The position numbers and the translations under genes are program-made. From Shinella yambaruensis (lineage in GTDB: Bacteria > Pseudomonadota > Alphaproteobacteria > Rhizobiales > Rhizobiaceae): a stretch of DNA of 64,000 nucleotides. The stretch is from positions 1 to 64,000 of the forward strand of contig NZ_JALJCK010000015.1 of the NCBI RefSeq assembly GCF_022899355.1, read 5' to 3'. Below the pieces are notes generated by a model, which saw nothing but the letters and a program-made list of their open reading frames with translations, did no database searches and was not told where the DNA came from. Below are positions 54,676-64,000 of the stretch, one piece after another (within the stretch, counting starts at the first letter, position 1; each line of letters begins with the position of its first letter).

Positions 54676-54920
54676 CTACCGGGTTGAAAGACGACAGGGT
54701 ATTGCATGAAATAGATCACCATCCCTTCCTCCGGGATTCTGGATGTTGCTGGCGACGTCGTCAACGTCCGTCTCGACCCAGTCGTAGCGGCCGGCGAAGG
54801 AAAGCACCCAGTTGTCGATCCTGACCTGGTCCTGCGCATAGAGGCCGACCTGGGTCTGGAAGACAGTCTCCAGGCTATCGGCAGAGGGGTTTCCGGCCCT
54901 CGTTGAAAGCGCTTCTTGCG
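54676..54920 (-). pseudogene. Fragment of a TonB-dependent (ferrichrome-type) receptor
   Basis: One minus-strand frame contains QTQVGLYAQDQVRIDNWVL followed by SFAGRYDWVETDVDD, an unmistakable piece of a FhuA-like beta barrel, with no plug domain, no signal peptide and no remaining barrel. About 80 codons of an expected ~700 survive. It lies right after the aldehyde dehydrogenase stop, in a different frame. The parent gene has been deleted or rearranged, which marks a junction between the ROK locus and the sulfoquinovose operon. Confidence 0.65.
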
Positions 54921-54953: not shown

Positions 54954-56423
54954 TCAGAGCCCGGCGACGCAGACATATTTCAGTTCGAGAAAGCCCTCGA
55001 TGCCGTATTTGGAGCCCTCGCGGCCGAGGCCGGACTGCTTGATGCCGCCGAAGGGTGCCATCTCGTTGGCGATCATGCCCGTGTTGACCCCTACCATGCC
55101 CGCCTCCAGCGCCTCGGCGACGCGGAAGACGCGCGCCATATCCTTGGCGTAGAAATACGAAGCGAGGCCATATTCGCTGTCGTTGGCCATGGCGATCACG
55201 TCGTCCTCGTCCCTGAAGGTGATGATCGGGGCAAGCGGGGCGAAGGTCTCCTCGCTCGCGACCTTCATCGCCTGCGTGACGCCGGCAATGACGGTCGGCT
55301 CGTAGAAGGTGCCGCCGAGGGCGCTGCGCCTGCCGCCGGCCAGGAGCCGGCCGCCCTTTTCCAGCGCGTCGGCCACATGCTCCTCCATCTTGGCCACCGC
55401 CTTCTCGTCGATCAGCGGCCCCTGCGTGGTGCCGGCCTGCGTGCCGCGGCCGAGCTTCAGTCCCGCGACCTTGGCGAGCAGCTTTTCCGTGAAGGCTTCG
55501 GCCACGTTCGACTGCACATAGATGCGGTTGGCGCACACGCAGGTCTGGCCGGCATTGCGGAATTTCGAGATCATCGCGCCCTCCACGGCCGCATCGAGAT
55601 CGGCATCGTCGAAGACGATGAAGGGCGCGTTGCCGCCAAGCTCCAGCGACAGGCGCTTGATGCCGTCGGCGGCCTCCTTCATCAGCCAGCGGCCGACGCC
55701 GGTGGAGCCGGTGAAGGTGATCTTCGCGACCTTCGGGTTGTGGCAGAATTCCGCACCGATCGGCCGCGCCTCGCCGGTGACGACGGAGAAGACGCCCGCC
55801 GGGACCCCGGCCCGCTCGGCGAGCACGGCAAGCGCAAGCGCGGAGAGCGGCGTCTGTGAGGCGGGCTTCAGCAGCATGCTGCAACCGGCGGCAAGCGCGG
55901 GTCCCGCCTTGCGGGTGATCATGCCGTTCGGGAAGTTCCAAGGCGTGATGGCGGCACAGACGCCGACCGGCTGCTTCAAGACCATGATGCGCTGGCCGGC
56001 ATTGGCGCCGGGAATGATATCGCCGTCGATGCGCTTGGCCTCTTCGGCGAACCATTCGAGATAGGCGGCGTTCGAGACCACCTCGCCCCTTGCCTCCGCC
56101 AGCGGCTTGCCCTGCTCCGAGGAGAGGATCAGCGCGAGGTCGTCGGCATTGTCGAGGATGAGCTGGAACCAGGCTTTCAGCACCGTGGCGCGCTCCTTGG
56201 CCGTGCGTTTCGCCCAGAGTTTCTGCGCGACGTCCGCCGCATCGATGGTGGCGGCGACCTCTTCCCGCGAGAGCGAGGGCACATCGGCGATCGGCGACCC
56301 GTCGAAGGGATCGGTGACGGCGAAGGTGCGGCCATCGGCGGCCGGGACCCAGCGTCCGCCGACAAAGGCCTTGTCGGCAAGCAGGCTCGCATCCTTGAGC
56401 GCGGTTTTGAGCGGGTGCGTCAT
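54954..56423 (-). CDS. Aldehyde dehydrogenase, probable sulfolactaldehyde dehydrogenase (GabD-like)
   Basis: A 489-aa ALDH of the succinate-semialdehyde-dehydrogenase type: CAAITPWNFPNGMITRKAGPALAAG, the base Glu in LSLELGGNAPFIVFDDADLD, the nucleophilic Cys in NAGQTCVCANR and EETFAPLAPI. In the sulfo-Entner-Doudoroff pathway this enzyme oxidises 3-sulfolactaldehyde to 3-sulfolactate for export. GabD relatives fill this role in Pseudomonas putida SQ1. It is last in the operon, overlapping the exporter gene by 4 nt, which supports the assignment over GABA metabolism. Confidence 0.8.
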   Translation of the reverse strand: MTHPLKTALKDASLLADKAFVGGRWVPAADGRTFAVTDPFDGSPIADVPSLSREEVAATIDAADVAQKLWAKRTAKERATVLKAWFQLILDNADDLALILSSEQGKPLAEARGEVVSNAAYLEWFAEEAKRIDGDIIPGANAGQRIMVLKQPVGVCAAITPWNFPNGMITRKAGPALAAGCSMLLKPASQTPLSALALAVLAERAGVPAGVFSVVTGEARPIGAEFCHNPKVAKITFTGSTGVGRWLMKEAADGIKRLSLELGGNAPFIVFDDADLDAAVEGAMISKFRNAGQTCVCANRIYVQSNVAEAFTEKLLAKVAGLKLGRGTQAGTTQGPLIDEKAVAKMEEHVADALEKGGRLLAGGRRSALGGTFYEPTVIAGVTQAMKVASEETFAPLAPIITFRDEDDVIAMANDSEYGLASYFYAKDMARVFRVAEALEAGMVGVNTGMIANEMAPFGGIKQSGLGREGSKYGIEGFLELKYVCVAGL

Positions 56424-57190
56424 GAAATATCTCCGAAAAGCTTGAGAAAGGCGGGACCGGCAAGGGAGATGCCGGAGAGGAAAAGCAGGCAGAAGGCGAC
56501 GCGCCGGAGCCCCATCGGCGTCAGCGGCGGCGGATAGCGTCGGGCGAGCAGCGTGAAGGCCATGACGACCGGAATGCAGAGCAGCCCCCACCAGAAGGAG
56601 GCGGACGGCATGTTGCCGGCAAGCCCGACAAGCACCAGGCGCAGCAGGCCGTTGACGGCGAAGATGGCGACAAGCGTCTCGCGGATGGAGACGGCTCGCA
56701 GCGGCTGGCGGTAGAAATGATAGACCAGCGGCGGGCCGGCGGTGGAGAACAACCCGCCCATGACGCCGGCGATCGCGCCGAAGAAGACGAAGGAGCCCGG
56801 CCCAGAGGGGGTTGCGAACGGCGTGGGGCGAAGGAGAAGCTGGAGGCTGGAGAGGATGATGATCGCGCCCAGCACCAGCTTCAGCCAGTCGAGCGAGGCG
56901 GCGAGCAGCAGGCCGAGCAGCCAGTAGCCGAGAACGAGGAAGGCGAGGCTGACGAAGATGACGAGCAGGAATTCGCGCCGGGCGATATCCCGCCAGCCCT
57001 TTGCCAGCACCTGCGTCGCATTGACGAGCCCGAGGATGCCGACCAGCACGGCCGCATCCGGCAGCGGCACGACGCCGGTCAGCCCCACGCCGCCCATCAT
57101 CAGCAGGCCGAGCGCGAAGCCCGTCAGCGTCTGCACATAGGAGGCGCCCGCCGCAAGCAGCAAGAGGACGACGAGGCTCGCCGTGTCCAT
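56420..57190 (-). CDS. TauE/SafE-family membrane exporter, probable sulfolactate exporter
   Basis: A 256-aa membrane protein with seven to eight hydrophobic helices. It has the TauE/SafE features: VQTLTGFALGLLMMGGVGLTG near the N terminus and GAIAGVMGGLFSTAGPPLVYHFY at the internal repeat. The family exports sulfite, sulfoacetate and other organosulfonates. Placed between the sulfolactaldehyde dehydrogenase and the sulfoquinovosidase, export of 3-sulfolactate is the expected role. It is 2 bp after the sulfoquinovosidase stop. Confidence 0.82.
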   Translation of the reverse strand: MDTASLVVLLLLAAGASYVQTLTGFALGLLMMGGVGLTGVVPLPDAAVLVGILGLVNATQVLAKGWRDIARREFLLVIFVSLAFLVLGYWLLGLLLAASLDWLKLVLGAIIILSSLQLLLRPTPFATPSGPGSFVFFGAIAGVMGGLFSTAGPPLVYHFYRQPLRAVSIRETLVAIFAVNGLLRLVLVGLAGNMPSASFWWGLLCIPVVMAFTLLARRYPPPLTPMGLRRVAFCLLFLSGISLAGPAFLKLFGDIS

Positions 57191-57192
57191 AA

Positions 57193-59184
57193 TCAGAGCG
57201 TCCCGATACCCGCGAAAAGGTCCGCCTGCGCCGCATCCTCGCGGTAGAACACGGCCGGCTGGCCGAGCGCGGCGGCGATGGTTACTTCACGGCCGCCTTC
57301 GTGCGTCTCGCCGCTCCAGACATGCACCCAGTTCGCGCCCTTCGGCAGGTAGACGGTGCGTTCCTCCTCGCCCGCCTTCCAGACGGGGGCGACGAGCAGG
57401 TCCGCGCCGTAGAGATAGGCGTCCTGGATGGCATAGGTGGCGCGGTCGTGCTCGTGGTGCAGGAAGAGCGGGCGCTGGACGGGCAGGCCCGTTTCGGCCG
57501 CTTCCGAGGAAAGCGCCTTGAGGTAGGGTGCAAGGTGCACGTAGATCGCCGTCATGCGGGCGAAATGGGCGAGCACCGCCTCGTCCTGGTCGATCTGCAC
57601 GTTATCGCGCGGGCGGTTGCCCTCGTGGCTGCGCATGACGGGCGTGAAGGCCGCCATCTCGGCCCAGCGCATCAGCAGTTCCGGCGTGCGGACATTGCCG
57701 AAGAGGCTGGTATAGCCGCCGATATCGGAATGGTGATAGGCATTGCCGAGGAGGCCGGAGGAGAGCGCGCCGGAGATGACCGTGACGAGACCGTCATGGC
57801 GCGAGAAATCCACCGACTGGTCGCCGCCCCACAGGAGCGGGCAATGGGCCTGCACGCCGGTATAGCCGGCGCGCATGAAGAACAGCGTGTCGCCCGTCTT
57901 GCCGCGGCTTTCCACCGCCTTGGCGTTCACCTCGGCCCAGAGCGTCGGCCAGGCATTGTGCATCAGCTTGGCGTCGACGCCATTCGAAAGCTTCACGTCG
58001 ATCGGCAGGTATTCGCCGAAATCCGCCATCCAGCCGGAGAGGCCGAAATCCAGCATGTTCTGGCCGATCACCCGCTCGGCGAACCAGGCAGCCGCGGCCG
58101 GATTGGTGAAATCGACCACGCCGCAATCGAACTCGCCGAAATCGACCAGCGCGGTCTTGCCCTCGGCATCCGTCGCGAAATAGCCGCTCGCTTCCGCCTC
58201 CGGGAAGAGCGAGCCGTCGACGCACAGATAGGGGTTCACATAGCCGAGGAAGCGGATGCCGTCGTCGGCAAGCTCCGCGATCTTCTGGCGCAGGTGCGGA
58301 TAGCGCTCCTCGTTGCCGACCCAGTCCCAGAAGAGGCGCGCGCCGAACGTGGTGTGGCGCAGCCCCACCCAGTCCTCGCACCACAGGCCCGAAACCTTCA
58401 CGCCGGCGGCGCGCATCTTCTCCAGCCGCTCGAACGAGCCCTTGCCGTCCTTGAGGCCGATGATCGCGCCCTGGTAGACCCAATCCGGCAATTGCGGCTG
58501 GCGGCCGAAGCGCAGCGAGAGTTTGCCGACGAGATCGCGGAAGGTGGCGGCGGCGAAGAATTCGATACGCTCCGGCACTTCCCAGACTTCCACCTCGTGA
58601 AAACCGTCGCGGCGGAAGTCGAAGACGGCATAGGCGGTCGTATCGACATGCAGCGCATAGCGCCGGGAGGAGATGTAGGTCGGCTGTGGATAGTTGGTGT
58701 TGTAATAGTCGCCGCCGGCCTTGCCGGTCACGTCGGACTGGAAGGTGATCTCCGTCGTCTTGTCGCGGCCGACGCCGGGTTCGGAGGTCCAGAGCGGGAA
58801 GCGGCGGCCCCGCAGGTCGAAATAGGACATCTGCTCGCCGCCGCCCCAGACATGCTCGTCCTTCTCCGCGACGGTGCGCAGCCAGAGGCGGTTGACGGAG
58901 GCATCGGGCGCTTCGAGCCGCAGGTTGTCGCCCTCCACCTTGAGGATGAGGCGCACCGGCTGGCCGGGCGCATTGGAAAGACGGATCGTCTCGCCTTCGA
59001 TCTCGGCATGGGCGAGCGCCACGCGCTCCACCACATAGTCCTCGATATCGAAATTGCCGCGATACATGTCCATGCGCTCCTCGCCGCGGCCGGCGAAGAG
59101 GGCGGGATTTTCCGCGCTGTGGCTGAGGATCTTGCGGCCATCGAGGGAAAGCGTGAAGCCGCTGGCGGTCTTTTCGAGGAGCAT
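57193..59184 (-). CDS. Sulfoquinovosidase, GH31 family
   Basis: A 663-aa alpha-glycosidase without signal peptide. The nucleophile D388 is in WMADFGEYLP and the acid/base D455 in LLWGGDQSVDF. The sulfonate-binding set of the KERWY class is present: Lys in IIGLKDGK, Glu in WCEDWVG, Arg in FGARLFWDW with its Trp, and Y491 in HSDIGGYTS. As I recall it, the Agrobacterium sulfoquinovosidase has its acid/base and Tyr at these same numbers. It releases sulfoquinovose from sulfoquinovosyl glycerol, a plant and cyanobacterial sulfolipid product, in the cytoplasm. Confidence 0.92.
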   Translation of the reverse strand: MLLEKTASGFTLSLDGRKILSHSAENPALFAGRGEERMDMYRGNFDIEDYVVERVALAHAEIEGETIRLSNAPGQPVRLILKVEGDNLRLEAPDASVNRLWLRTVAEKDEHVWGGGEQMSYFDLRGRRFPLWTSEPGVGRDKTTEITFQSDVTGKAGGDYYNTNYPQPTYISSRRYALHVDTTAYAVFDFRRDGFHEVEVWEVPERIEFFAAATFRDLVGKLSLRFGRQPQLPDWVYQGAIIGLKDGKGSFERLEKMRAAGVKVSGLWCEDWVGLRHTTFGARLFWDWVGNEERYPHLRQKIAELADDGIRFLGYVNPYLCVDGSLFPEAEASGYFATDAEGKTALVDFGEFDCGVVDFTNPAAAAWFAERVIGQNMLDFGLSGWMADFGEYLPIDVKLSNGVDAKLMHNAWPTLWAEVNAKAVESRGKTGDTLFFMRAGYTGVQAHCPLLWGGDQSVDFSRHDGLVTVISGALSSGLLGNAYHHSDIGGYTSLFGNVRTPELLMRWAEMAAFTPVMRSHEGNRPRDNVQIDQDEAVLAHFARMTAIYVHLAPYLKALSSEAAETGLPVQRPLFLHHEHDRATYAIQDAYLYGADLLVAPVWKAGEEERTVYLPKGANWVHVWSGETHEGGREVTIAAALGQPAVFYREDAAQADLFAGIGTL

Positions 59185-59195
59185 GGTGAAAACCT

Positions 59196-59963
<768 letters not shown>

Positions 59964-60848
59964 TCAGCGGGCTGGGTTGAACAGGGGCCGGGCGAGGCCG
60001 GCGACGTTGGTGCGCATGGAGAAGAGCGCGCCGGAGAGCGGGTATTCCGTCAGTTCCTCGTCGGGCCGGCCGATGGAGGCGCTGGTGCAATAGAGCGTCT
60101 TCAGGTCCGGCCCGCCGAAGGCGATCATGGTCGGGCATTTCGCCGGGACCGGATATTCGGCGAGAAGTTTTCCGTCCGGCGCATAGCGCTGCACCCGGCC
60201 GCCCTCGAAAAGCGCCGTCCAGTAGCAGCCCTCGGCATCGACCGCGCCGCCATCCGGCCGGCCCTTGTCGGTCTCGCTGCCGAAGCGGGCGAAGACCTGC
60301 CGGTTCGTTGCCTCGCCCGTCGCGGCATCGTAGTCGCAGGCATAGAGCGTGTAGCGCAGCGTGTCGGAATGATAGAGCCGCCGCCCGTCCGGCGAGAAGG
60401 CGACGCCGTTGGAGGTGAGCAGTCCTCCGGCGAGGCGCGCCAGGCCGCGCCTGTCGTAGCGGTAGAGGCTGGCAATGCCCTTCTCGCGCGTCTCGTCCAC
60501 CGTGCCGGCGATGAAGCGGCCGACCGGATCGACGCCGCCGTCGTTGAAGCGGCTGATCGCCTGGTCCTCGGGATTGTCCGCGAGCTTCCTCAGTAGCTTG
60601 CCGTCCGCATCGATGAGCCAGAGGCCGGAGCGCAGGCCGGCGATAAAACCGCCGCCCTCGGCAAGGCCGATGCAGCCGACCTCCTCGGGCAACTCCATCG
60701 TGCGGAGCGCACCCGTCGCCGGATCGTGGCGGTGGATGCGGCAGCGCTTGATATCGACGAAATAGAGCGCCTGTTCGGCGACCGACCAGAGCGGGCATTC
60801 GCCGAGCGCGGCCGAAAAATCGAGGACGGGGGCGAAAGCGTGCTGCAC
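59964..60848 (-). CDS. SMP-30/gluconolactonase-family lactonase, probable sulfogluconolactonase
   Basis: A 294-aa six-bladed propeller. The metal ligands of the SMP-30 family are visible: Glu in ALGECPLWSVAEQALYFVDI, Asn in ISRFNDGGVDPVGRF, Asn in GLLTSNGVAFSPDGRRLYHSDT and Asp in GRPDGGAVDAEGCYWTALF. It should hydrolyse 6-deoxy-6-sulfogluconolactone to sulfogluconate, the second step after sulfoquinovose dehydrogenase, encoded 9 bp downstream. Other aldonolactonase activity cannot be excluded by sequence. Confidence 0.86.
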   Translation of the reverse strand: MQHAFAPVLDFSAALGECPLWSVAEQALYFVDIKRCRIHRHDPATGALRTMELPEEVGCIGLAEGGGFIAGLRSGLWLIDADGKLLRKLADNPEDQAISRFNDGGVDPVGRFIAGTVDETREKGIASLYRYDRRGLARLAGGLLTSNGVAFSPDGRRLYHSDTLRYTLYACDYDAATGEATNRQVFARFGSETDKGRPDGGAVDAEGCYWTALFEGGRVQRYAPDGKLLAEYPVPAKCPTMIAFGGPDLKTLYCTSASIGRPDEELTEYPLSGALFSMRTNVAGLARPLFNPAR

Positions 60849-60858
60849 GGCCCTGCCC

Positions 60859-61662
60859 TCAGTAAGCTGCCATCGGCGTGGCCGGGGCCTTCTCGACGCC
60901 CTTCATCTGGCCGAGCCATTCGCTGGCGCGGCCGGTCATCAGGGCGATGTCGGAGGCGATGGCGGCGAAATCGTAGCCGTAGCCGATGAAGCGCTTCACC
61001 ATGTCCGGGTTCGGGCCGACGATGCCGACCGGCTTGCCGGCCGCATGCGCGTCCTTCGCGGCCTTCTCGATCAGCGCCTGCACCTCCGGATGGGCGATGT
61101 TGCCGATATGGCCCATGGCGGCGGAGAGGTCGCCCGGGCCGACGAACAGCGCGTCGATGCCCTCGACGGCGGCGATCTCCGGCAGGCGCTCGATGGCCTC
61201 CGGCGTTTCGAGCTGCACGATGGTGCAGATGTCGTCATTGGCGGATTTCAGGTAGTTCGGGATCGTGCCGAAGCGCGAGCCACGATGGACGGCCGCGACG
61301 CCCCGGATGCCATGCGGCGGATAGCGCGTATAGGACGCGGCGGCCTTGGCCTCCTCGGCATTCTGCACGAAGGGCAGCATGACGGTGCGCGCGCCGGCAT
61401 CGAGCGCGCGCTTGACCAGCACCTGGTCGTTCCAGGCAAGCCGCACCACGGCGTCGGCCGGCGTGCAGCCGATGGCGCGCAGGATATGGGCGAGATCGGT
61501 GAACTCGACCGGCACATGCTCCATGTCGACCACGAGGAAATCGAAGCCGCCATAGCCGAGGGCTTCCGCCGTCGCGGGGGCTGCGGCCATCAGCCAGGTG
61601 CCGAGCGGGGTGGCGCGCGAAGCGTCGCCGAGCCAGGACTTGAAGGGGTTGTTGCTGCTCAT
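60859..61662 (-). CDS. HpcH/HpaI-family aldolase, probable KDSG aldolase
   Basis: A 267-aa class II aldolase of the HpcH/HpaI family: GTWLMAAAPATAEALGYGGFDFLVVDMEHVPVEF, VMLPFVQNAEEAKAAA, RYPPHGIRGVAAVHRGSRFG, IVQLETPEAIERL (metal Glu) and DALFVGPGDLSAAMG (metal Asp). It would split 2-keto-3,6-dideoxy-6-sulfogluconate into pyruvate and sulfolactaldehyde, the step that gives the cell its carbon. This assigns the operon to the sulfo-ED route, since sulfo-EMP uses a different aldolase and a kinase that are absent here. Confidence 0.85.
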   Translation of the reverse strand: MSSNNPFKSWLGDASRATPLGTWLMAAAPATAEALGYGGFDFLVVDMEHVPVEFTDLAHILRAIGCTPADAVVRLAWNDQVLVKRALDAGARTVMLPFVQNAEEAKAAASYTRYPPHGIRGVAAVHRGSRFGTIPNYLKSANDDICTIVQLETPEAIERLPEIAAVEGIDALFVGPGDLSAAMGHIGNIAHPEVQALIEKAAKDAHAAGKPVGIVGPNPDMVKRFIGYGYDFAAIASDIALMTGRASEWLGQMKGVEKAPATPMAAY

Positions 61663-61673
61663 GGGTCTTTCCC

Positions 61674-63407
61674 TCAATAGATCGGCGGTTCGGGCACGGG
61701 CTGCGTGCCGGTCAGGAAGTCGAAATCGCAGCCCTCGTGCGCCTGGCTGACATGGCGCTGGTAGAGGGCGGCGAAGGAGCGTTCGTAGATGGGGGCGGTC
61801 GGCTTCCATTCGGCGCGGCGGCGAGCCAGCTCCTCCTCGGAAACGCGCATGTTGATCGTGGCGGCGGCGACGTCGAGTTCGATCAGGTCGCCGGTCCTCA
61901 CCAGCGCCAGCGGCCCGCCGACGGCGGCTTCCGGCGAGACGTGCAGGATGCAGGTGCCGTAGTGGGTGCCGCTCATGCGCCCGTCGCAGATGCGCACCAT
62001 GTCGCGCACGCCTTGCTTCAGGAGCTTCTTCGGGATCGGCAGGTTGCCCCATTCCGGCATGCCGGGCGCGCCGACCGGGCCGGCATTGCGCAGGACGATC
62101 ACCGTGTCCTCGGTGATATCGAGGTCCGGGTCGTCCAGCGTCCGGTTCATGGTGCGCGGATCGTCGAAGACGATGGCCGGGCCGACATGCTTCAGGAACT
62201 TCGGGTTGGCGGCGGAGGATTTCATCACCGCGCCGTTCGGCGCGAGATTGCCGCGCAGCACTTCCAGCGTCTTGCCGCGCGCAAGCGGCACGACGGGATT
62301 GTCCTCGCCGCGGATAACCTCGTCGTTCCAGCAGTCGGCGTCGGCGATGTTCTCGCCGAGCGTCCGGCCGTTGACGGTCGGCCGGTCGAGCTTCAGGTGC
62401 CGCGACAGCTTTTTCAGCATCGCATTGACGCCACCGGCGAAGTAGAAATCCTCCATGAGGTATTCGCCGGAGGGGAAGACATTGGCGACGACCGGCACCT
62501 TGCCGGCCATCTCCGCCATGTCGTCCAGCGTCAGCGATACGCCGACGCGCTTTGCCATGGCGATGAGGTGCACGGCCGCGTTTGTCGAGCCGCCGAGCGC
62601 CATGTAGGCGACGAGGCCGTTGAGGAAGCTGTCGCGGTCAAGGATCTTCGAGGGCTTCAGGTCCTCCCAGACCATGTCGACGATGCGCGCGCCGCAGGCG
62701 GACGCCATGCGCGAATGGCCGGAATCGACGGCAGGGATGGAGGAGGCGCCGGAGAGCGTCATGCCCATCGCGTCGACGATGGAGGTCATGGTGGAGGCGG
62801 TGCCGATGGTGTTGCAGGTGCCGGGCGAGCGCGTCATGCGGCTTTCGAGGTCCACCCAGTCCTCGCGGGTGATGTTGCCGGCGCGCAGCTCGTCCCAGTA
62901 TTTCTTGGTATGGGTGCCGGCGCCGGTCTTGATGCCGCGCCACTGGCCGTTCGACATCGGCCCGGCGGGGCAGAAGATCACCGGGATATCCATCGAGAAG
63001 GCGCCCATCAGCAGCGCCGGGGTGGACTTGTCGCAGCCGCCGAGGAGGACGGCGCCGTCGATCGGGTGACAGCGCAGCAGCTCCTCGCATTCCATGGCGA
63101 GGAAATTGCGGTAGAGCATGGTGGTGGGCTTCACCATGACCTCGCCGACGGAGATCGCCGGAAGCTCGACGGGATAGCCGCCCATCTGCCAGACGCCGCG
63201 CTTGACGGCCTCGGCCCGGTCGCGCAGATGCGCATGGCAGGGGCTCATCTCGCTCCAGGTGTTGATGATGCCGATCACCGGCCGGCCCATGAACTCCTCG
63301 CGGCGCATGCCCATCTGCTGCGTGCGCTGGCGGTGCGCAAAGGCCCGCATGTCGTCGGCGGCGAACCAGCGCTGGCTGCGCAGTTCGGAAAGCTCGCGTT
63401 TCGTCAT
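61674..63407 (-). CDS. IlvD/Edd-family dehydratase, probable sulfogluconate dehydratase
   Basis: A 577-aa Fe-S dehydratase. Cluster and metal motifs are present: NTWSEMSPCHAHLRDRA, GAVLLGGCDKSTPALLMGA, TRSPGTCNTIGTASTMTSI, SGHSRMASACGARIVDMV and, late, GRMSGTHYGTCILHVSPEAAVGGPLALV. The sequence is of the sugar-acid dehydratase branch. In this operon it would dehydrate 6-deoxy-6-sulfogluconate to the keto-deoxy acid used by the aldolase. It overlaps the upstream permease gene by 4 nt. Confidence 0.87.
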   Translation of the reverse strand: MTKRELSELRSQRWFAADDMRAFAHRQRTQQMGMRREEFMGRPVIGIINTWSEMSPCHAHLRDRAEAVKRGVWQMGGYPVELPAISVGEVMVKPTTMLYRNFLAMECEELLRCHPIDGAVLLGGCDKSTPALLMGAFSMDIPVIFCPAGPMSNGQWRGIKTGAGTHTKKYWDELRAGNITREDWVDLESRMTRSPGTCNTIGTASTMTSIVDAMGMTLSGASSIPAVDSGHSRMASACGARIVDMVWEDLKPSKILDRDSFLNGLVAYMALGGSTNAAVHLIAMAKRVGVSLTLDDMAEMAGKVPVVANVFPSGEYLMEDFYFAGGVNAMLKKLSRHLKLDRPTVNGRTLGENIADADCWNDEVIRGEDNPVVPLARGKTLEVLRGNLAPNGAVMKSSAANPKFLKHVGPAIVFDDPRTMNRTLDDPDLDITEDTVIVLRNAGPVGAPGMPEWGNLPIPKKLLKQGVRDMVRICDGRMSGTHYGTCILHVSPEAAVGGPLALVRTGDLIELDVAAATINMRVSEEELARRRAEWKPTAPIYERSFAALYQRHVSQAHEGCDFDFLTGTQPVPEPPIY

Positions 63408-64000
63408 CCCTTGATCCCCCCGGCGGTGAGGCCCGAGACGACGCGCTCCTGGAAGATGACGATCAGCACGGCGACCGGAACAATGCCGACGACGAGGGCG
63501 GCGGAGATGACCGGCCAGGGGAAGGCGAACTCACCCTGGTAGAGCTGGATGCCCACGGGCAGCGTGCGCAGCGCCGGATTGGAATTGAAGGACAGCGCCA
63601 GCAGGAACTCGTCCCAGGCATTGACGAAGGCGAGGATGCCCGCGGTGAAGACGCCCGGCGCGCAGAGCGGCACGACCACCTTGAAGAGCGCGCCCATCCG
63701 CGTGCAGCCGTCGATCATCGCGGCGTTCTCCAGATCGCGCGGGATGCCCTCGAAGAAGGAGACCAGCATCAGCGTGCAGACCGGCAGCGAGAGTACCGTA
63801 TAGGGCAGCACCAGCGCGATCCAGGTGTTGAGCAGGTTCAGCGTCCTCATGATCTCGAAGAGCGGCACGAGCAGCGTCACCAGCGGGAAGGTCGAGACCG
63901 CGATGATCAGCGACAGGATGAGGCCGCGGTAGCGCAGGTTCAGCCGCGCCAGCGCATAGGCCGCCAGCACCGAGACGAGCAGCGTCAGGCAGGTGGAGAG
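63404..64000 (-). CDS. MalG-type ABC transporter permease, C-terminal part (5' end outside window)
   Basis: At least 198 residues of a CUT1 permease. The coupling loop is clear: GIPRDLENAAMIDGCTRMGALFKVVVPLCAPGVFTAGILAF, followed by NAWDEFLLALSF and the last helix. The N-terminal helices lie beyond the right edge. Four-base overlap with the dehydratase gene puts the transporter in the sulfoquinovose operon, as in rhizobial sulfo-ED loci, where an ABC importer takes up sulfoquinovose or its glycerol glycoside. The other permease, binding protein and ATPase should lie just outside. Confidence 0.85.
   Translation of the reverse strand, partial: LSTCLTLLVSVLAAYALARLNLRYRGLILSLIIAVSTFPLVTLLVPLFEIMRTLNLLNTWIALVLPYTVLSLPVCTLMLVSFFEGIPRDLENAAMIDGCTRMGALFKVVVPLCAPGVFTAGILAFVNAWDEFLLALSFNSNPALRTLPVGIQLYQGEFAFPWPVISAALVVGIVPVAVLIVIFQERVVSGLTAGGIKG

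Follow-up and report, generated by a model that had tools for sequence, protein, structure and literature searches.

Probable sulfoquinovose use and a unit with two predicted sulfoquinovosidases

The 64,000-base window analysed here (positions 1-64000 of contig C6, which has 141,582 bases, in the 6.87-Mb genome of Shinella yambaruensis; numbering continues past the window edge) ends in an operon that is well supported, as judged from its sequence, as a sulfo-Entner-Doudoroff (sulfo-ED) gene set for sulfoquinovose (SQ), the sulfur-containing sugar of plant sulfolipids, which is one of the most abundant organosulfur compounds. The operon is part of a 16.7-kb unit (54954-71701 of C6) that reaches beyond the window and that also contains a second predicted sulfoquinovosidase, of family GH188, and a second binding protein. 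We consider it highly probable that this unit would let its host import and degrade SQ glycosides by the sulfo-ED pathway with both sulfoquinovosidases, GH31 and GH188, and one LacI repressor, every enzyme activity of the unit being a prediction. To a more detailed proposal we would give about even chances: that one LacI-type repressor governs two sulfoquinovosidases with unrelated mechanisms as well as two binding proteins feeding one importer, that the unit arose by joining a sulfo-ED operon of the GH31 type to one of the GH188 type, and that it lets the host harvest SQ glycosides of both alpha and beta linkage (or with differing substituents). The pathway and this kind of operon are known; what is new is the unit, in which both sulfoquinovosidases and an additional binding protein stand together, apparently controlled by one switch.

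In the proposed mechanism, the binding proteins would pass SQ glycosides to a single ATP-binding cassette (ABC) importer, and SQ would be released both by the GH31 enzyme, which is alpha-specific, and by the GH188 enzyme, which is oxidoreductive and belongs to a family reported to be active on alpha and beta linkages. The SQ would then be oxidized, the lactone opened, the acid dehydrated, and the keto acid split into pyruvate and sulfolactaldehyde; the sulfolactaldehyde would be oxidized to sulfolactate, which is probably exported by a TauE-type protein. We hypothesize a division of labor between GH31 and GH188. If this is true, the two sulfoquinovosidase families would not be mere alternatives but able to divide labor, and the compact, apparently co-regulated unit would offer a direct test of whether GH188 and the second binding protein make further SQ glycosides usable, such as beta-linked ones or those with other aglycones.

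Predicted sulfoquinovosidases, binding proteins and operator-like sites

The predicted GH31 sulfoquinovosidase (57193-59184, minus strand) aligned without gaps at about 1250 bits with 5ohs/5ohy, which we take to be the Agrobacterium tumefaciens sulfoquinovosidase. The next matches (8r56, 6pnr, and the Escherichia coli YihQ entries) scored 736-883 bits, with the E. coli sulfoquinovosidase 5aed among the matches, and the other chains listed scored at most 157 bits. The initial annotation had based its choice of substrate on the sulfonate-binding KERWY residues of this protein, and these (K245, E270, R283, W286, and Y491) indeed line up ungapped with 5ohs/5ohy, together with the Asp pair D455/D388; the motif residue numbers and the catalytic Asp assignment are those that we assume for GH31. 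In the same columns, 8r56 has Q, Q, R, W, and Y.

The genes of the GH188 protein (69082-70197, minus strand) and of the second binding protein, SBP2 (70453-71700, plus strand), are divergent, and both are open over their full length. The best solved relatives of the GH188 protein are 8qc2 and 8qc3 (approximately 405 bits), followed by 8zn9 (356 bits), while the remaining Gfo/Idh chains scored at most 81 bits; passages of PMC10755693 identify 8qc2/8qc3 as the SqgA enzymes on which family GH188 was founded. The protein is 53% identical to ArSqgA (8qc3) over 359 residues and keeps its K107, Y136, R166, K172, E189, H193, and H321, which take part in catalysis or in sugar or sulfonate contact, so that the catalytic and sulfonate-binding residues of ArSqgA are in place. 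The residue printed as Glu163 in the ArSqgA paper falls on a Val in our numbering, and the adjoining Glu is conserved. We predict that the protein is an NAD-dependent sulfoquinovosidase.

Both binding proteins resemble SmoF. For SBP1 (65278-66513, minus strand), the nearest solved relative is SmoF 7nbz (705 bits, next 234), and for SBP2 it is also SmoF (536 bits, next 213), the two proteins sharing 62% identity. The ABC genes after SBP2 encode a BMP-type transporter and are replaced by other genes in Shinella sp. HZN7, so that SBP2 is seemingly without permeases of its own. We infer that it works with the main importer, which is encoded on the minus strand by ABC permease G (63404-64258, its start codon at 64258, so that the window end at 64000 cuts the gene), the second permease, F (64262-65197), and the ATPase (66554-67630).

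The genome as a whole contains four copies of the 12-mer ATAATAGCGCTA (and 0 of its reversed control), and all four sit in two divergent promoter regions, suggesting one regulon. Two copies on the plus strand lie before the ATPase gene (67675-67686) and at the LacI start (67848-67859), and two on the minus strand lie before GH188 (70291-70302) and before SBP2 (70408-70419). The divergent LacI regulator gene spans 67832-68911 on the plus strand, although its true start may be further in, because LacI is annotated as shorter (1041 nt) in Shinella sp. WSC3-e. A LacI-type repressor probably controls both transcription units via the TAGCGCTA palindrome, a pairing of repressor and sites that we infer from the sequences. 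Of the 22 sulfo-ED loci with LacI, 18 have an 8-mer core no more than 450 nt from this gene, including the Paraburkholderia loci L062 and L066, compared with 8 sites elsewhere in 1.38 Mb. The core is also present upstream of the GH188 genes of two other genomes (G002 and G227), and S. granuli and HZN7 have three core copies each in these two promoter regions, the site before SBP2 being inexact. The recurring palindrome may be usable as a marker for SQ regulons.

The borders of the unit are defined by a blastn match to S. granuli (54954-71701, 91.6%) that runs from the stop of the aldehyde dehydrogenase (ALDH) gene to one base beyond the SBP2 stop, with uneven identity (81-98% in 500-base intervals). 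Plasmid pShin-01 of Shinella sp. HZN7 has the same two ends, a break within the ATPase gene, and different flanking genes, while plasmid pdSHIWSC3 of Shinella sp. WSC3-e matches at 97% over 27 kb, extending past the unit on the SBP2 side. As the unit is carried on plasmids in three Shinella records and C6 encodes a repABC-type RepA scoring above the family cut-off, C6 appears to be a plasmid, and the 16.7-kb unit is probably plasmid-borne.

Rarity and origin of the GH31/GH188 combination

In our draws of family and class genomes, up to five GH188 and up to three GH31 candidates were scored per genome, so that some genomes may be missed, and the GH31 and GH188 counts within each draw were taken as referring to the same genome set. 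GH188 was detected in at least 96 and GH31 in at least 21 of the 394 genomes in the family draw; the corresponding numbers in the class draw (385 genomes) were at least 29 and at least 4. In each draw, both were seen only in our genome; the family draw included seven further genomes of this genus, in which neither was found. With our genome excluded and kinship ignored, the probability of no overlap between GH31 and GH188 is 0.003 for the family draw; for the class draw it is 0.80, a value that is uninformative because GH31 is too rare there (4/385). In the genomes holding the nearest GH31 genes, for which every listed candidate was scored, GH188 is present in 2 of 80, namely, Paraburkholderia sp. 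C35 (1/30) and S. granuli (1/50), whose strain DSM 18401 carries the unit; the latter is the only such case among the 50 genomes with close GH31 relatives, many of which are Rhizobium.

Plasmid records with both families were found for Shinella sp. WSC3-e, WSD5-1, and HZN7, Paraburkholderia caribensis, and Burkholderia multivorans. On the P. caribensis plasmid (L158), GH31 and GH188 are in one cluster, with GH188 in two tblastn pieces, perhaps owing to a frameshift. On the B. multivorans plasmid (L159), they share one sulfo-ED cluster, which also has an annotated glycerol kinase and glycerol-3-phosphate dehydrogenase, fitting the use of sulfoquinovosyl glycerol.

In the available text of PMC10755693 (2023), GH31 and GH188 sulfoquinovosidases are described as complementary in distribution, and the representative GH188 clusters with SqgA are without a GH31 enzyme, whereas ours has GH31 and GH188 in one unit and a Lys at the position of L170. 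Coexistence of the two families is already published, because two rumen genomes and one described metagenome-assembled genome (MAG) with both are reported in passages of PMC13219744 (2026). In the rumen, e.g., in Neosphaerochaeta fermentans, YihQ and SqgA occur in one genome, as here; the N. fermentans case, however, is a MAG with a sulfo-transketolase route, whereas ours combines the sulfo-ED route with operator-like sites that are shared and an additional binding protein (PMC13219744, same passages). A literature search gave no report of GH31 and GH188 together within a sulfo-ED unit or sharing operators; in this search, only some of the papers listed were opened and subscription journals were mostly uncovered.

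Among the GH188 places in the family draw, 30 of 97 became loci. The Shinella GH188 protein groups with those of G002 and G227 (support 96/94). Another 27 GH188 proteins from the family (L094-L120) form a separate group, and no ED dehydratase or aldolase was found in 15 wider stretches around such GH188 genes (L134-L148). SBP2 groups with the G227 protein (100/99), outside the group of SBP1 and SmoF, and on this grouping we rejected SBP2 as a recent local duplicate of SBP1. In G227, a divergent SBP2/GH188 pair heads an operon with an ATPase, permeases, a dehydratase, an aldolase, and a short-chain dehydrogenase/reductase (SDR), and GH31 was found neither in the 20 kb fetched nor in the genome. 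The likeliest origin is that the pair came from a G227-type operon and was added to a GH31-type operon.

Pathway enzymes and alternative readings

The initial annotation described seven complete genes and a cut permease, all on the minus strand and packed with 2-11 bp gaps or 4-nt overlaps, and the gene coordinates bear this out: from the dehydratase downward, the gaps are 11, 10, 3, 11, and 2 nt, with 4-nt overlaps between permease and dehydratase and between TauE and ALDH. All seven window proteins match Pfam families above the curated cut-offs (Aldedh, TauE, GH31, SDR, SGL, HpcH/HpaI, and ILVD_EDD), and all three that were searched against solved structures (GH31, SDR, and ALDH) have matches, which excludes chance as the source of the gene calls. 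The second permease, binding protein, ATPase, and regulator that were to be sought beyond 64000 are all there. The sulfo-ED reading is thus supported by residues, families, transporter genes, and regulator, but it was incomplete, with GH188 and SBP2 (69082-71700) lying outside its view.

For the predicted SQ dehydrogenase (SDR, 59196-59960, minus strand), the best solved relative is 9gwu (312 bits, next 228), which is named sulfoquinovose 1-dehydrogenase and which we take as the Pseudomonas putida enzyme. For the predicted sulfolactaldehyde (SLA) dehydrogenase (ALDH, PF00171; 54954-56423, minus strand), the best PDB match is 8c54 (906 bits, next 673), deposited as a succinate semialdehyde dehydrogenase and presumably RlGabD of Rhizobium leguminosarum. 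The SDR keeps 9 of the 10 PpSQDH residues named in the available parts of PMC12133307. The ALDH shares with RlGabD all seven residues checked from passages of PMC10599462 (W162, N163, F164, R171, E261, R289, and C295), thus including Cys295/Glu261 and the proposed sulfonate pair Arg171/Arg289. The remaining enzymes, all on the minus strand, are family matches with roles assigned from context, i.e., a putative sulfogluconolactone lactonase (SGL, PF08450; 59964-60848), KDSG aldolase (HpcH/HpaI, PF03328; 60859-61662), and sulfogluconate dehydratase (IlvD/Edd, PF00920; 61674-63407). One cluster therefore has candidates for all five enzymes (SQ dehydrogenase, lactonase, PF00920 dehydratase, PF03328 aldolase, and SLA dehydrogenase), and the Pfam families agree with those published for sulfo-ED.

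Several findings weigh against parts of this reading. The R154 position of the SDR, a water-mediated contact, is Asn. The dehydratase exceeds the NCBIfam cut-off as an L-arabinonate dehydratase (922 bits vs. 882), and the ALDH falls in the NCBIfam succinate-semialdehyde dehydrogenase subfamily (685 vs. a cut-off of 646), names that we take to be the nearest curated ones only. The exact core near LacI is absent in 4 of the 22 ED loci with LacI. There are no maltose-type permeases beside SBP2. The L170 position of GH188 is Lys in our protein, S. granuli, WSC3-e, and HZN7 (the other listed loci have Leu or Met), while parts of PMC11465081 give L170 as present in 96.0% of GH188 and parts of PMC10755693 describe the ArSqgA L170 contact as running via the backbone. 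Finally, sulfolactate might undergo further breakdown rather than export, given a sulfoacetaldehyde acetyltransferase gene (Xsc, G000:C22:217900-219639; 1021 bits, cut-off 676), which probably indicates other organosulfonate metabolism in the same genome. Sulfolactate breakdown by SuyAB was considered and rejected, as the PF04295 search of the genome gave no SuyB, its sole match being a 509-aa protein that, from length and layout, we presume to be altronate-dehydratase-like.

The Lys at L170 and the lack of permeases for SBP2 would also be expected if GH188 and SBP2 were passengers from a broken-up operon with no part in SQ use, and the loci of the pair's nearest relatives have no GH31. However, neither reading frame is interrupted, the only other genomic copies of the operator 12-mer sit at this pair, and in S. 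granuli and HZN7 the pair lies inside the same unit of homology; we regard passenger status as unlikely. Far less probable is an operon for sulfofucose, the C4 epimer of SQ, via the sulfofucolytic ED pathway. The dehydrogenase, lactonase, and aldolase families are common to both routes, and candidate clusters occur in rhizobia (PMC12421959, in part), but the dehydratase distinguishes them: it is PF00920, as in the SQ route, and not PF13378/PF02746, as in the sulfofucose route. The cluster also has GH31, and the E. coli and A. tumefaciens GH31 sulfoquinovosidases are reported there to be inactive on para-nitrophenyl (PNP) sulfofucoside, so we rejected this reading. The least credible substrate is a sugar or sugar acid that has no sulfonate group (a plain glucoside or L-arabinonate), for which the NCBIfam names of dehydratase and ALDH and the name "alpha-glucosidase" for GH31 might speak, but which we rejected because GH31, SDR, and ALDH carry sulfonate-binding residues and because the unit has two binding proteins of the SmoF type and sulfoquinovosidases from two unrelated families.

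Related operons and probable sulfolactate export

Sulfo-ED use of SQ by the main operon has close parallels. Among the 80 GH31 loci fetched (the best of 590), 63 are at least 20 kb long, and in 29 of these the ED core (IlvD, HpcH, and SDR) is present. All 12 genes occur in 8 of the 63, mostly from rhizobia, and in each of the eight the gene order is identical to ours; the main operon is therefore an ordinary member of a published kind. The gene of the putative sulfolactate exporter TauE/SafE (PF01925, 52 bits; 56420-57190, minus strand) is present in 21 of the 29 ED-core loci vs. 2 of the 34 other GH31 loci of this length, and these two (L063 and L065) have lactonase, SDR, and ALDH matches. 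This distribution fits a role in the ED route, with sulfolactate as the putative substrate.

Li et al., in 2020 (cited in PMC12890257), reportedly described the sulfo-ED pathway of R. leguminosarum SRDI565, and the pathway description available for that strain indicates the same route and enzyme types as ours. The initial annotation had named P. putida SQ1 and R. leguminosarum as known hosts, in agreement with passages of PMC12890257, where SQ is converted to sulfolactate and pyruvate. The Agrobacterium GH31/SmoF cluster has a GH31 enzyme, binding protein, and permeases closely related to ours, but no ED enzymes were detected in the Agrobacterium loci L014-L017. We take that cluster to be of the sulfo-SMO type. 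Passages of PMC13372026 (2026) link Agrobacterium to sulfo-SMO and tie a 13C-labelled Shinella amplicon sequence variant (ASV) to sulfo-ED, as here, through reference genomes; a second sulfoquinovosidase is unmentioned in its passages on Shinella.

A few minor features were also seen. One locus (L149, in G057) has two adjacent SBP1-like matches, which may be another way of arriving at two binding proteins; in other respects its operon is canonical. In Elstera litoralis (L050), there are two IlvD-like matches and no lactonase match in the cluster, and Elstera without lactonase also appears in parts of PMC13372026. Below the ALDH gene, a frame at 54676-54900 has an end resembling a TonB-dependent receptor fragment, and at the corresponding position in WSC3-e a short gene of 294 nt is annotated as "TonB-dependent receptor".

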